Source: Desulfovibrionaceae bacterium (GTDB lineage: Bacteria > Desulfobacterota > Desulfovibrionia > Desulfovibrionales > Desulfovibrionaceae). Taken from it: DNA of 56,954 nt. Every line of letters begins with the position of its first letter. Positions within the stretch are counted from its first letter, which is position 1. Where the stretch lies: positions 1 to 56,954 of the forward strand of contig JACCQI010000021.1 in NCBI GenBank assembly GCA_015709315.1, given 5' to 3'. Positions 3,000 through 29,355 of this stretch are shown here, in pieces. A program made the translations under genes and the position numbers. The notes below the pieces were generated by a model. That model worked only from the letters and a program-made list of their open reading frames with translations, was not told the origin of the DNA and searched no databases.

Positions 3000-5543
<2,544 letters not shown>

Positions 5544-25816: not shown

Positions 25817-25840
25817 CGCATTGTAGCTGGAGGGAATTAT

Positions 25841-26239
25841 ATGGCGCATGAAATGGGTTTTCGACTTTCCAAGCAAAGGAAAGTGATTTTGGAAGAGTTG
25901 CGGAAGGTTAAGAGCCATCCCACGGCGGACGAGGTCTACGACATGGTCCGCAAGATCATCCCGCGCATCAGCCTGGGCACAGTCTACCGCAATCTGGAAT
26001 TCCTTTCCAGCAAGGGGTTGGTCCTGAAGCTGGGCGGGCCGGGGGAACAGAAGCGTTTTGACGGCACGCCCGCCCCGCACCCGCATATCCGTTGCGAGGT
26101 CTGTACGGCCGTTGCCGACGTCGAGTGCGACATCGACATCCCTCAGCTCCCGGAATCCTGCGCCGATGGTTACAAAATACTGAGCACCAACGTCGAGTTC
26201 GTCGGCATTTGCCCCAAGTGCCAGAAAGCCAGGCAATAG
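25841..26239 (+). CDS. perR: Fur-family peroxide-responsive repressor PerR
   Basis: Metal-dependent repressor of 132 residues. The winged helix is seen in LSKQRKVILEELRKVKSHPT and ISLGTVYRNLEFLSSKGLV. The metal/dimer domain has RFDGTPAPHPHIRCEVC and a closing CPKC, so the structural zinc site is two CxxC pairs. The HPH and nearby Asp residues match the iron/manganese site that senses peroxide. GGAGGG precedes the ATG at 25841; an upstream start would add a non-family tail. Its position before rubrerythrin, desulfoferrodoxin and roo supports PerR rather than Fur. The regulon probably includes these neighbours. Confidence 0.85.
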   Translation: MAHEMGFRLSKQRKVILEELRKVKSHPTADEVYDMVRKIIPRISLGTVYRNLEFLSSKGLVLKLGGPGEQKRFDGTPAPHPHIRCEVCTAVADVECDIDIPQLPESCADGYKILSTNVEFVGICPKCQKARQ

Positions 26240-26468: not shown

Positions 26469-27041
26469 ATGTCGCTTAAAGGTACGCAGACGGAAAAGAA
26501 TCTTTTGACCGCATTCAGCGGAGAGTCCCAAGCCCGCAACAGATATACCTATTTTGCCAGTGTGGCCAAGAAAGAGGGCTACGTGCAGATATCCAAGATC
26601 TTCGAGGAGACCGCCAACCACGAGAAGGAGCACGCCAAGCGGCTGTTCAAGTTCCTTGAGGGCGGCCCGGTGGAGATCACCGGCACCTTCCCCGCGGGCA
26701 AAATCGGCACCACCCTGGAGAATCTCCGTTCCGCGGCCGAGGGCGAGCATGAGGAATGGGAATACATGTATCCCGAGTTCGCCAAGATCGCCCGCCAGGA
26801 GGGCTTCAGCGACATCGCGGCGGTCATGGAAAACATTGCCGTGGCCGAGGCGTACCACGAGGAACGCTACAAATCCCTGATCGCCAACATCGAGTCCGAC
26901 AAGGTTTTCAGGAAGGATACCGAGATCGTCTGGCGCTGCCGGAATTGCGGATACAACCACAAGGGCACCACCGCCCCGGTCAAATGTCCGGCCTGCGATC
27001 ATCCCCAGGCCCATTTCGAGATCAAGGACACCAACTGGTAA
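26469..27041 (+). CDS. rbr: Rubrerythrin (NADH-linked peroxide reductase component)
   Basis: Di-iron peroxidase of 190 residues that reduces hydrogen peroxide to water in anaerobes. The four-helix bundle supplies di-iron ligands in GESQARNRY, EETANHEKEH, EGEHEEWEY and AVAEAYHEERY. A C-terminal rubredoxin-like domain holds one iron through CRNCG and CPACD. Length and order are normal for the family. A strong ribosome site (AAGGAGG) precedes the ATG. It is followed after 23 bases by desulfoferrodoxin, so both are cotranscribed and likely controlled by PerR. Confidence 0.96.
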   Translation: MSLKGTQTEKNLLTAFSGESQARNRYTYFASVAKKEGYVQISKIFEETANHEKEHAKRLFKFLEGGPVEITGTFPAGKIGTTLENLRSAAEGEHEEWEYMYPEFAKIARQEGFSDIAAVMENIAVAEAYHEERYKSLIANIESDKVFRKDTEIVWRCRNCGYNHKGTTAPVKCPACDHPQAHFEIKDTNW

Positions 27042-27064: not shown

Positions 27065-27448
27065 ATGGCTATCAAACTGGGTGAAGTGTACAAGTGTGAA
27101 GTGTGCGGCAATATCGTCATGGCCATCCACGAGGGCGTGGGCGACCTGGTCTGCTGCGGCCAGGACATGGTCCTGATGACCGAGAACACCGTGGACGCGG
27201 CCGTGGAGAAGCACGTTCCCGTGGTCACCAGGGACGGCGACACCGTCACCGTCAAGGTCGGCGGCGTGCCGCATCCCATGGAGGAAAAGCACTACATCGA
27301 GTGGATCGAGATCCAGGTGGGCGAAACCGTGCTGACCAAGATGCTCCAGCCCGGCGAGGCCCCGGAAGCCGAGTTCTGCGTCAAGGGCCTCAGCGGCGAC
27401 ATCGTGGCCCGCGAGTACTGCAACATCCATGGCCTCTGGAAGGCGTAG
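27065..27448 (+). CDS. dfx: Desulfoferrodoxin (superoxide reductase)
   Basis: Protein of 127 residues that reduces superoxide to peroxide without making oxygen. The N-terminal desulforedoxin domain has YKCEVCGN and the adjacent pair CCGQ, forming the FeS4 centre I. The C-terminal neelaredoxin domain supplies the catalytic His4-Cys iron through EKHVP, HPMEEKHYIEW and YCNIHGLW. AAGGAG precedes the ATG at 27065. It follows rubrerythrin and precedes a terminator, then the rubredoxin gene that should reduce it. Confidence 0.96.
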   Translation: MAIKLGEVYKCEVCGNIVMAIHEGVGDLVCCGQDMVLMTENTVDAAVEKHVPVVTRDGDTVTVKVGGVPHPMEEKHYIEWIEIQVGETVLTKMLQPGEAPEAEFCVKGLSGDIVAREYCNIHGLWKA

Positions 27449-27537: not shown

Positions 27538-27563
27538 GGGCGGGCCTTGCGGCCCGCCCTTTT
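27538..27563 (+). terminator. Terminator after desulfoferrodoxin
   Basis: Perfect 9-bp stem GGGCGGGCC-TTGC-GGCCCGCCC followed by TTTT. Confidence 0.7.
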
Positions 27564-27588: not shown

Positions 27589-27607
27589 GATATTGCCAGG
27601 AGATCAC

Positions 27608-28057
27608 ATGGCGTTGCCTGAAGAAATATACCAGTGCCAGACCGTCAATTGCGGATACATCTACAACCCCGACAAGGGGGACCGGAAGGGGAAGATCCCC
27701 AAGGGCACCAAGTTCGAGGACCTGCCGGACGATTGGCGCTGCCCCATCTGCGGGGGGACCAGGAAATGCTTCCGCCCGCTGGCCGGTCCCGGTTCGACCA
27801 AGTCCGACTGCGAATTGCCCGTTGAAACCGACCCGGAAAAGTTGACAGCCCCGGCCGCTGCTGAGAAGGTACACGATACTAAGGAGAACGATCCCATGCA
27901 GAAATACGTTTGCGAGATTTGCGGCTACGTGTACGACCCCGCAGTGGGCGACCCTGATACCGACATCCCGGCCGGCACCGCTTTCGAGGACCTGCCGGAC
28001 GACTGGACGTGTCCCGTGTGCGGCGCGACCAAGGACAGTTTCGTCCCGGAGGGCTAG
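27608..28057 (+). CDS. Fused two-domain rubredoxin with internal start
   Basis: A 149-residue electron carrier made of two rubredoxin domains. The first uses a widened CQTVNC pair plus CPICG, the rubredoxin-like (Rdl) form. The second, from residue 97, is a standard 53-residue rubredoxin with CEICG and CPVCG. They are joined by a linker of about 35 residues rich in Pro, Ala and Glu. Inside the linker AAGGAG stands 9 bases before an ATG at 27896, so the second rubredoxin can also be made alone. The first start has AGGAG upstream. It should donate electrons to Roo, encoded next, and to desulfoferrodoxin and rubrerythrin. Confidence 0.9.
27885..28057 (+). promoter_or_regulatory. Internal ribosome site and start for a free rubredoxin
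   Basis: TAAGGAG followed after a suitable spacer by ATG at 27896, in frame with the longer gene. Translation from here gives a 53-residue protein of exactly normal rubredoxin length beginning [11 protein letters not shown]. Confidence 0.6.
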
Positions 28058-28081: not shown

Positions 28082-28116
28082 AGGAAGCGCGTTCCGGTCA
28101 GGTCGCGCTTCCTTTC
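28082..28116 (+). terminator. Weak terminator or attenuator between rubredoxin and roo
   Basis: AGGAAGCGCG (28082-28091) pairs with CGCGCTTCCT (28104-28113). Only a broken T tract follows, so partial read-through into roo is expected. Confidence 0.4.
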
Positions 28117-28155
28117 CATTTGCCAATAGCCTGACCGCGCAATGTGGAGTTTTGA

Positions 28156-29355
28156 ATGAAACCAGTTGAAATCAAGAAAGACGTGTATTGGATCGGCGCG
28201 GTGGATTGGGATCGCCGCAGCTTCCACGGCTACTCCGTGGCTCCCATGGGCACCACCTACAACAATTTTCTCATCGTGGACGAGAAGGTTACCCTGATCG
28301 ACACCGTGGCCGAGGAATTCTGGGGCACGCTCCAGTGCAACATCGCCAACGTGCTCGGCGACCGGAAGATCGACTATTTTGTGGTCAACCACCTGGAGCC
28401 GGACCATTCGGGCTGCCTGGCCAAGGCCATCGAGAAATACAAACCCGAAAAAATCTACACCTCCCCCATGGGCCAGAAGGCCATGAAGGCCCATTTCCAC
28501 TACAAGGACTGGCCCGTTGAGGTCGTGCCCACCGGCACGGAGATCAACATCGGCAAGCGGACCCTGACCTTCATGGAAACCCGCATGCTGCACTGGCCCG
28601 ATTCCATGTTGACCTACTGCCCCGAGGAAAAGATCGCCTTCACCAACGACGCCTTCGGCCAGAACTGGGCCACCAGCGAACGGTGGGCGGACGAGGTGGA
28701 CCGCGCCAAGCTCGAGGAACTGATGCGCTTCTACTACGCCAACATCGTGCTGCCCTACTCCCCGGTGGTCCTCAAGACCCTGGCGGCCCTCAGGGACATG
28801 AACCTGGAACTGGACGTGATCTGCCCGGACCACGGCCTGCTGTTCCGGGGCGACGACTGCGCCTGGGCCATGGAAAAGTACCAGGAGTATGCCGAGCAGA
28901 AGCCCAGGAACCGGGCGGTCATCATCTACGACACCATGTGGCATTCCACCGAAAAGATGGCCAAGGCCGTTGCCTCCGGCCTGGTGGACGAGGGCGTTTC
29001 CGTGCGCCTGATGTCCATGAAGTCCAACCACCACTCCGAGGTCATGCTCGAAGTGTTCGACGCGGCCGCCGTGATCGTCGGTTCCCCGACCCACAACAAC
29101 GGCATCCTGCCGCTCATGGCCGACATGCTGACCTACATGAAGGGCCTGAGGCCCCAGAACAAGATCGGCTCGGCCATCGGTTCCTTCGGCTGGTCCGGCG
29201 AGTGCGTCAAGGTGCTCACCCAGTGGCTGGAGGACATGAACATGGAGGTGGTGCAGCCGGTCAAGACCCAGTTCGTGCCCGACCACGAGGCGCTGGGCAA
29301 ATGCTACGAGCAGGGCAAGGCCATCGCCGCGGCCATCAAGGCCAAGCTTGGGTAG
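28156..29355 (+). CDS. roo: Rubredoxin:oxygen oxidoreductase (flavodiiron protein)
   Basis: Flavodiiron protein of 399 residues that reduces oxygen to water (or nitric oxide) with electrons from rubredoxin. The N-terminal metallo-beta-lactamase-like domain has the di-iron ligands in NHLEPDHSG and later ICPDHGLLF. The C-terminal flavodoxin domain binds FMN: VIIYDTMWHSTEKMAKAV, GSPTHNNGIL and GSFGWSGECV. Length and order match Desulfovibrio Roo. GGAG lies before the ATG. It closes the oxygen-defence block and is ended by a two-way terminator. Confidence 0.96.
   Translation: MKPVEIKKDVYWIGAVDWDRRSFHGYSVAPMGTTYNNFLIVDEKVTLIDTVAEEFWGTLQCNIANVLGDRKIDYFVVNHLEPDHSGCLAKAIEKYKPEKIYTSPMGQKAMKAHFHYKDWPVEVVPTGTEINIGKRTLTFMETRMLHWPDSMLTYCPEEKIAFTNDAFGQNWATSERWADEVDRAKLEELMRFYYANIVLPYSPVVLKTLAALRDMNLELDVICPDHGLLFRGDDCAWAMEKYQEYAEQKPRNRAVIIYDTMWHSTEKMAKAVASGLVDEGVSVRLMSMKSNHHSEVMLEVFDAAAVIVGSPTHNNGILPLMADMLTYMKGLRPQNKIGSAIGSFGWSGECVKVLTQWLEDMNMEVVQPVKTQFVPDHEALGKCYEQGKAIAAAIKAKLG

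Follow-up and report, generated by a model that had tools for sequence, protein, structure and literature searches.

How many proteins, and from how many messages, does a gene yield that joins two rubredoxins in a single reading frame? In Desulfovibrio vulgaris, rdl and rub are described as separate genes, as the original prediction had stated, rdl in the perR-rbr-rdl operon and, apart from it, rub in rbo-rub-roo, and their products, Rub and Rdl, are reported as common electron donors (PMC545781). The same source reports strongly constitutive expression of the D. gigas rub/roo operon, driven by a sigma70 promoter. The paper on Pseudodesulfovibrio methanolicus 5S69T gives the cluster with a plain "rub" and places homologous clusters in all type strains (PMC11505543). 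The stretch of DNA analyzed here, the window, comprises 56,954 nucleotides of a Desulfovibrionaceae bacterium (assembly GCA_015709315.1, contig JACCQI010000021.1). It carries one open frame encoding two rubredoxins and, in the linker between them, the signals of a second gene start, both as first described. The parts of the gene are as follows.

27598 to 27602, + strand: Shine-Dalgarno sequence AGGAG for the full-length start (sequence reading)
27608 to 28057, + strand: rdl-rub fusion open reading frame of 149 amino acids, made up of an Rdl-type rubredoxin domain, a linker and a standard rubredoxin (open frame, uninterrupted in 31 of 36 genus genomes)
27608 to 27781, + strand: Rdl-type domain, residues 1 to 58, first motif C-x4-C (CQTVNC), bounded by the linker at 27782 (profile match and alignment)
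27782 to 27895, + strand: linker, residues 59 to 96, carrying a promoter-like element and a ribosome site (alignment)
27880 to 27886, + strand: internal Shine-Dalgarno sequence TAAGGAG (AGGAG ahead of the start codon at all 36 genus loci)
27896 to 28057, + strand: predicted free rubredoxin of 53 amino acids from the internal ATG (ATG in 30 of 30 distinct fused genes)

Both halves of the protein are rubredoxins by profile. PF00301 matches two stretches (149.3 bits in total, cut-off 23), and NF045768 scores 150.5 against a cut-off of 90. The four iron-binding cysteines of each domain (C10, C15, C45 and C48; C102, C105, C135 and C138) are invariant among 16 aligned proteins, the first pair of the Rdl-type domain being C-x4-C. 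An AlphaFold2 single-sequence model (mean pLDDT 73, pTM 0.39) assigns pLDDT values below 50 to linker residues 73 to 79 and 81 to 94, as would be expected of a flexible linker. AlkG-type rubredoxins of alkane oxidizers also hold two rubredoxin domains per chain, but their linker is given as 70 residues, against about 38 here, and AlkG serves alkane hydroxylase, whereas the present fusion has an Rdl-type first domain and oxygen-defense neighbors (PMC3604635). Among its immediate neighbors, namely rbr, rbo, roo and a PerR-like gene, there is no genetic link of the AlkG type to alkane hydroxylase or rubredoxin reductase.

25838 to 26239, + strand: FUR-family regulator, PerR-like (PF01475; PerR models match below their own cut-offs)
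26469 to 27041, + strand: rubrerythrin, rbr (NF045767 above cut-off)
27065 to 27448, + strand: desulfoferrodoxin/superoxide reductase, rbo (TIGR00320 above cut-off)
27538 to 27563, + strand: terminator-like hairpin and T run in the gap between rbo and rdl-rub (9-bp stem, then TTTT)
28083 to 28112, + strand: hairpin GGAAGCGCG...CGCGCTTCC in the gap between rub and roo, then TTTCC (sequence reading; loop of 12)
28156 to 29355, + strand: flavodiiron protein of the roo type (PF19583 and PF00258; best NCBIfam models below cut-offs, the name "roo" resting on gene order and literature)

The protein families and the oxygen-defense gene set are those that the accounts of D. vulgaris describe (PMC545781, PMC3125180). 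The arrangement is different, i.e., rdl and rub stand apart in D. vulgaris but are adjacent and fused here, with the signals of rub inside a coding linker.

The internal start is a regular feature of the gene. TAAGGAG precedes the in-frame ATG at 27896 by 9 nt, a spacing normal for a gene start, and the 53-residue product would have the size of a rubredoxin, as foreseen. Across the 31 fused genes of the genus, taken to be Pseudodesulfovibrio, AGGAG stands at start-like spacing before 31 of 80 internal in-frame ATGs, and one of the six-base forms AAGGAG, TAAGGA or AGGAGG before 26 of 80. The corresponding counts in the rbr, rbo and roo genes of the genus were 12 of 934 and 0 of 934; long open reading frames of the window, picked mechanically and perhaps not all genes, gave 1 of 187 by either measure. 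The internal ribosome site and its ATG occur more than chance would allow, and AGGAG with an internal ATG is present in 36 of 36 genus loci. A genuine fusion whose internal start is kept throughout the genus is likely to make two products, and the plain "rub" annotation likely conceals them. Pairs of products from one frame by way of an internal start have been described for Cas11b within cas8b (PMC11899642) and for bacterial N-terminal proteoforms (PMC11005335). Of the 26 proteoforms in the Salmonella set of the latter study, 25 had both starts on shared transcripts, either annotated or detected. The present linker differs from these proteoforms in having a promoter-like element of its own, which is kept after loss of the fusion.

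This element, TTGACA followed by 14 nt, TG, one base (a) and GAAGGT, occupies positions 27842 to 27870 just 5' of the internal ribosome site and had been overlooked in the first reading.

27842 to 27847, + strand: -35-like TTGACA, codons 79 and 80 (35 of 36 genus loci; TTG and ACA each in 29 of 30 distinct fused genes)
27862 to 27870, + strand: extended -10-like TG, one base and the weak hexamer GAAGGT, 2 of 6 to TATAAT (TG and second hexamer base A each in 35 of 35 loci, sixth base T in 30 of 35)
27876, + strand: predicted transcription start of a short rub message, sixth base past the hexamer (A in 27 of 35 loci)

The linker element has the geometry of a sigma70 promoter as read from its letters: a consensus -35 (6 of 6), a 17-nt spacer within the 16- to 18-nt range and, less clearly, an extended -10-like part. 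The distance from TTGACA to TG is 14 nt in all 35 TTGACA-bearing genus loci; that from TTGACA to ATG is 45, 47 or 48 nt, every length difference lying downstream of TG. At the -10 position, the TG and the A at -11 are invariant, and the T at -7 is present in all but five of the 35. The hexamer is remote from TATAAT in many genus loci, and a promoter scan whose rule requires 4 of 6 at the -10 gave no call at the linker site. The pattern TTGACA-N14-TG-NN-A-NNN-T matches twice in this genome, the linker site included, which by our own estimate is about chance. By itself the exact pattern proves nothing; its conservation does. A search of this genome for TTGACA-N17-TANNNT gave 16 matches, and the reversed control 3, which suggests that the genome makes use of this consensus.

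The main result against the promoter reading concerns the basal clade of the genus, where the missing T at -7 and the sole loss of TTGACA both fall. Its five TTGACA-bearing loci (L027, L028, L029, L032 and L035) all have A instead of T at the sixth hexamer base, and its sixth member, L031, has lost TTGACA and kept the fusion and the ribosome site. A second rubredoxin match is found elsewhere in 30 of 36 genus genomes, so free rubredoxin need not come solely from the fusion locus. The six genomes with no second match are those of the basal clade (G003, G011, G028, G010, G017 and G027 for L027, L028, L029, L031, L032 and L035, respectively); since they have no other rubredoxin match, the promoter would be expected to matter most there.

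Selection on the DNA letters, rather than on the protein, was read from a codon alignment of 30 distinct fused genes (the 31 minus L015, identical to L014) and from a codon-change tree of 28 taxa, L026 and L027 being left out for want of a clean roo match. The element is written in rare codons: in the rbr, rbo and roo genes of the same species, TTG accounts for 10.5% of the codons for Leu and ACA for 4.6% of those for Thr. Leu column 79 shows no codon change among Leu-bearing sequences; the other 26 conserved Leu columns show at least 3 each (median, 9). Codon 85 ends in T in 29 of 29 sequences, whether it encodes Ala, Thr, Pro or Asp. Among control 4-fold sites at 90% occupancy, 9 of 211 have 2 changes or fewer, and codons 80 (1 change) and 85 (0 changes) fall at the 2.8th and 0.5th percentiles. 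At 85% occupancy, each of the 18 slow control 4-fold sites is fixed for either C or G, the outcome expected from codon preference; codons 80 and 85 are the only ones fixed for A or T.

The lowest 6-nt windows of the rdl-rub gene are AGGAGA (1 change), AAGGAG (2) and GTTGAC and TTGACA (3 each), against a mean of 20.8 changes over its 442 windows. AAGGAG and TTGACA are the two slowest nonoverlapping 6-nt sites in the gene, and the residues that flank them vary freely in fused genes. Slow windows by themselves are not unique to the linker: among the 717 codon-pair windows of the control genes rbr, rbo and roo, at least 12 also have 0 to 3 changes, mostly Met, Trp, Asn, Gln, Lys or His codons in invariant proteins. 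As a cause of the constraint, a conserved RNA structure was rejected, RNAalifold finding no shared fold in the linkers of the 30 fused sequences (0.0 kcal/mol; column shuffles, -0.31, standard deviation 0.66).

Loss of the fusion separates it from the signals for free rubredoxin. All 36 Pseudodesulfovibrio genomes give a match; in four loci outside the 31 (L030, L033, L034 and L035), stops or a frame change separate Rdl from Rub, and in L036 no Rdl adjoins rub. Genome completeness is 87% for L030 and 81% for L035, and 99 to 100% for L033, L034 and L036. All five unfused loci keep TTGACA, the 14 nt to TG, and AGGAG with a start 5' of rub. Spacing between the -35 and the -10 is intact in L035, in which TTGACA stands 47 nt from the ATG, out of frame with the 48-nt linker, and it is still intact in L036, which has no Rdl. 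The survival of the element in these loci is the strongest evidence that it would serve rub by itself. The unfused loci are nested among fused ones, and the fusion has therefore been lost about five times in Pseudodesulfovibrio; the losses in L033 and L034 might be one event, since the two are close relatives and share an extra rubredoxin-like stretch. That stretch, seen in L034 (G005) and L033 (G022), is divergent and follows Rdl, upstream of both TTGACA and rub. Judged by these losses, the fusion appears dispensable, and the signals for free rubredoxin mostly do not.

The history of the linker was followed on a tree of 54 loci built from PerR, Rbr, Rbo and Roo and rooted on two g7 loci with the same gene order and separate rdl and rub. 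Genus g29 branches outside g28 and Pseudodesulfovibrio with support of 100, several inner genus nodes being weak (down to 31). Fused genes occur in 13 of the 14 g29 loci read (15 genomes searched; L041 has a TAG two codons before the internal ATG) and in all three g28 loci. The occurrence of the fusion in g29, g28 and Pseudodesulfovibrio makes a single origin before the genera split most likely. Linkers of g28 and g29 are about 18 codons shorter and have no TTGACA. Before the internal ATG, g29 has GGAGA in 14 of 14 loci read, and in the three g28 loci the internal ribosome site is weak or very near the ATG. Outside the fused genera, 0 of 20 unfused rdl-rub junctions (8 in g7 and 12 in other families of the order) contain TTGACA; in L198 and L199, a further rubredoxin-like frame precedes, and the junction was read to the next rubredoxin frame.

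The original prediction had inferred that an intergenic region became coding. That view may hold for the ribosome site and the start, but finds no support for the TTGACA part: a linker derived from an ancestral promoter-bearing spacer was rejected on the 20 TTGACA-free junctions, and the sister genera are fused with no TTGACA. By parsimony, the promoter-bearing part of the linker seems to be later than the fusion. The simplest order would be a fusion with a short linker and an internal ribosome site, followed by gain of the promoter-bearing stretch in Pseudodesulfovibrio; two independent linker shortenings are a possible alternative.

Rubredoxin fusions of other makes were also seen. In L088 (G166, genus g42), a reverse-order fusion, rubredoxin then Rdl in one frame, begins at about position 1385 downstream of desulfoferrodoxin; behind it come a nearly identical free rubredoxin, in a frame of its own, and roo. 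In L094, L095 and L096 (Desulfobulbaceae; about 3001 to 3405), Rdl-Rub fusions with other linkers, in another bacterial order, are likely independent. These three show no consistent internal ribosome site and hence give no support for dual products there.

How the long message arises is suggested by the gaps around the gene. A hairpin scan found terminator-like sites in the rbo-rdl gap of 21 of 36 genus loci and in the rub-roo gap of 18 of 36. When the latter gap was shuffled by mononucleotides, 24 of 360 shuffles had such a site. The scan counted loops of up to 10, so that the post-rub hairpin of the window (loop of 12) is not among them. By reading, the space between the first hairpin and rdl is usually too small for a promoter, and in L021 rbo and rdl are only about 10 nt apart. 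With so little room, and no evident promoter between hairpin and rdl, the fusion would be read from transcripts of the upstream operon that run through from rbo.

Two further observations concern the region downstream of rub. In the roo leader (window positions about 28120 to 28150) and in the rub-roo gap of L002 to L036, a short inverted repeat stands 5' of the roo ribosome site, AACGGT...ACCGTT in some species and AGCGGT...ACCGCT in others, overlapping a TTGA...TCAA palindrome. By eye it seems to covary between species, and the window copy is degenerate. In 13 of 14 g29 loci (L038 to L045, L067 and L080 to L083, not L068), TTGACA lies 46 to 59 nt past the rub stop within a GC-rich hairpin, perhaps a roo promoter overlapping a terminator.

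We propose that two transcripts probably give two proteins, a di-rubredoxin from the upstream operon and a free rubredoxin from a promoter in the linker. Transcripts of rbr-rbo passing the post-rbo hairpin would be translated from 27608 into the 149-residue di-rubredoxin. The sigma70-type promoter of the linker (TTGACA at 27842, 17-nt spacer, TG-extended -10 at 27862 to 27870) would start a short message at about 27876, some 4 nt ahead of TAAGGAG and with a leader of about 20 nt, and translation from the ATG at 27896 would yield free rubredoxin of 53 residues. What the DNA shows is the element and how well it is conserved; its activity as a promoter is inferred. The long message may also feed the internal ribosome site, and the protein sequence of the linker would in part be dictated by promoter letters. 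The likely use would be a steady supply of free rubredoxin, a common electron donor of oxygen-defense enzymes, independent of the operon controlling the fusion. The D. gigas rub-roo unit, reported as constitutive from a sigma70 promoter (PMC545781), is alike in this respect, but the promoter-like element of Pseudodesulfovibrio lies inside the coding frame of the upstream gene. A bolder form of this reading, to which we give slightly better than even chances, is that a working sigma70 promoter was built into the linker of the existing fusion in the Pseudodesulfovibrio ancestor and held by codon selection. It would have uncoupled steady free rubredoxin from a stress-controlled di-rubredoxin, and the linker amino acids would largely be a by-product of the promoter.

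The original prediction was that both products may arise from one message. Two products are likely; as to the single message, the conserved promoter-like element favors a separate short one, which we regard as the better reading, production of both proteins from the long message being possible. With a single message, the internal ribosome site alone would count, and TTGACA and TG would owe their conservation to something else. Retention of AGGAG and ATG in 36 of 36 genus loci, the TTGACA-less L031 included, is in its favor, as is GGAGA in every g29 locus read, where the ribosome site alone seems enough in a linker that has no TTGACA. The internal ribosome site is predicted to be moderately accessible in both the short and the long message (0.54 and 0.55, respectively), values that fail to separate one message from two; the rdl start entered this calculation with coordinates shifted by one base. 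A single message nevertheless leaves unexplained the rare-codon TTG ACA, the fixed 14 nt to TG, the invariant A at -11 and the survival of TTGACA and TG in five unfused genomes, and RNAalifold offers no shared linker RNA fold in its aid. We therefore consider it unlikely.

Less probable still is that the element is a DNA site of another kind, e.g., one that binds a regulator or some other protein, with free rubredoxin made from the long message. Such a site would fit the many loci whose -10 hexamer bears little likeness to TATAAT, and the basal clade with no T at -7. Against it, the kept parts and their spacing match an extended -10 sigma70 promoter placed just before a ribosome site, and TTGACA-N14-TG is not a palindrome and is kept before rub in unfused loci. 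We give very little credence to the idea that only the di-rubredoxin is made and that the internal signals, ribosome site and promoter alike, are relics left from an earlier layout; the frame is indeed open in 31 of 36 genomes, but relics should decay, yet both sites are the slowest in the gene, and it is the fusion, not the signals, that 5 of 36 genomes have lost. Loss of a stop codon between the domains through faulty sequencing or assembly, a sequencing error having been named at the outset as a way for the fusion to fail, is rejected as next to impossible, since the same open frame recurs in those 31 genomes and in the sister genera and nothing was found in its favor.

We thus favor two transcripts, one of them started within the coding linker. 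A fusion whose coding linker carries a promoter-like element for its second half, and an element that outlives the fusion, seem to be new; in the literature searched, with most subscription journals outside its scope, we noticed no description of an rdl-rub fusion or of a linker promoter. If true, the locus would cleanly exemplify a single piece of DNA that is protein linker, promoter and ribosome site. Natural experiments separate these roles, as five genomes have lost the fusion and kept the signals, and one has lost TTGACA and kept the fusion. The locus would show how a gene fusion is tolerated while the single domain stays available, and the role of a di-rubredoxin in oxygen defense would become testable. 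Should the bolder reading also be true, the linker would be dual-coded, its amino acids being dictated by what the DNA does.
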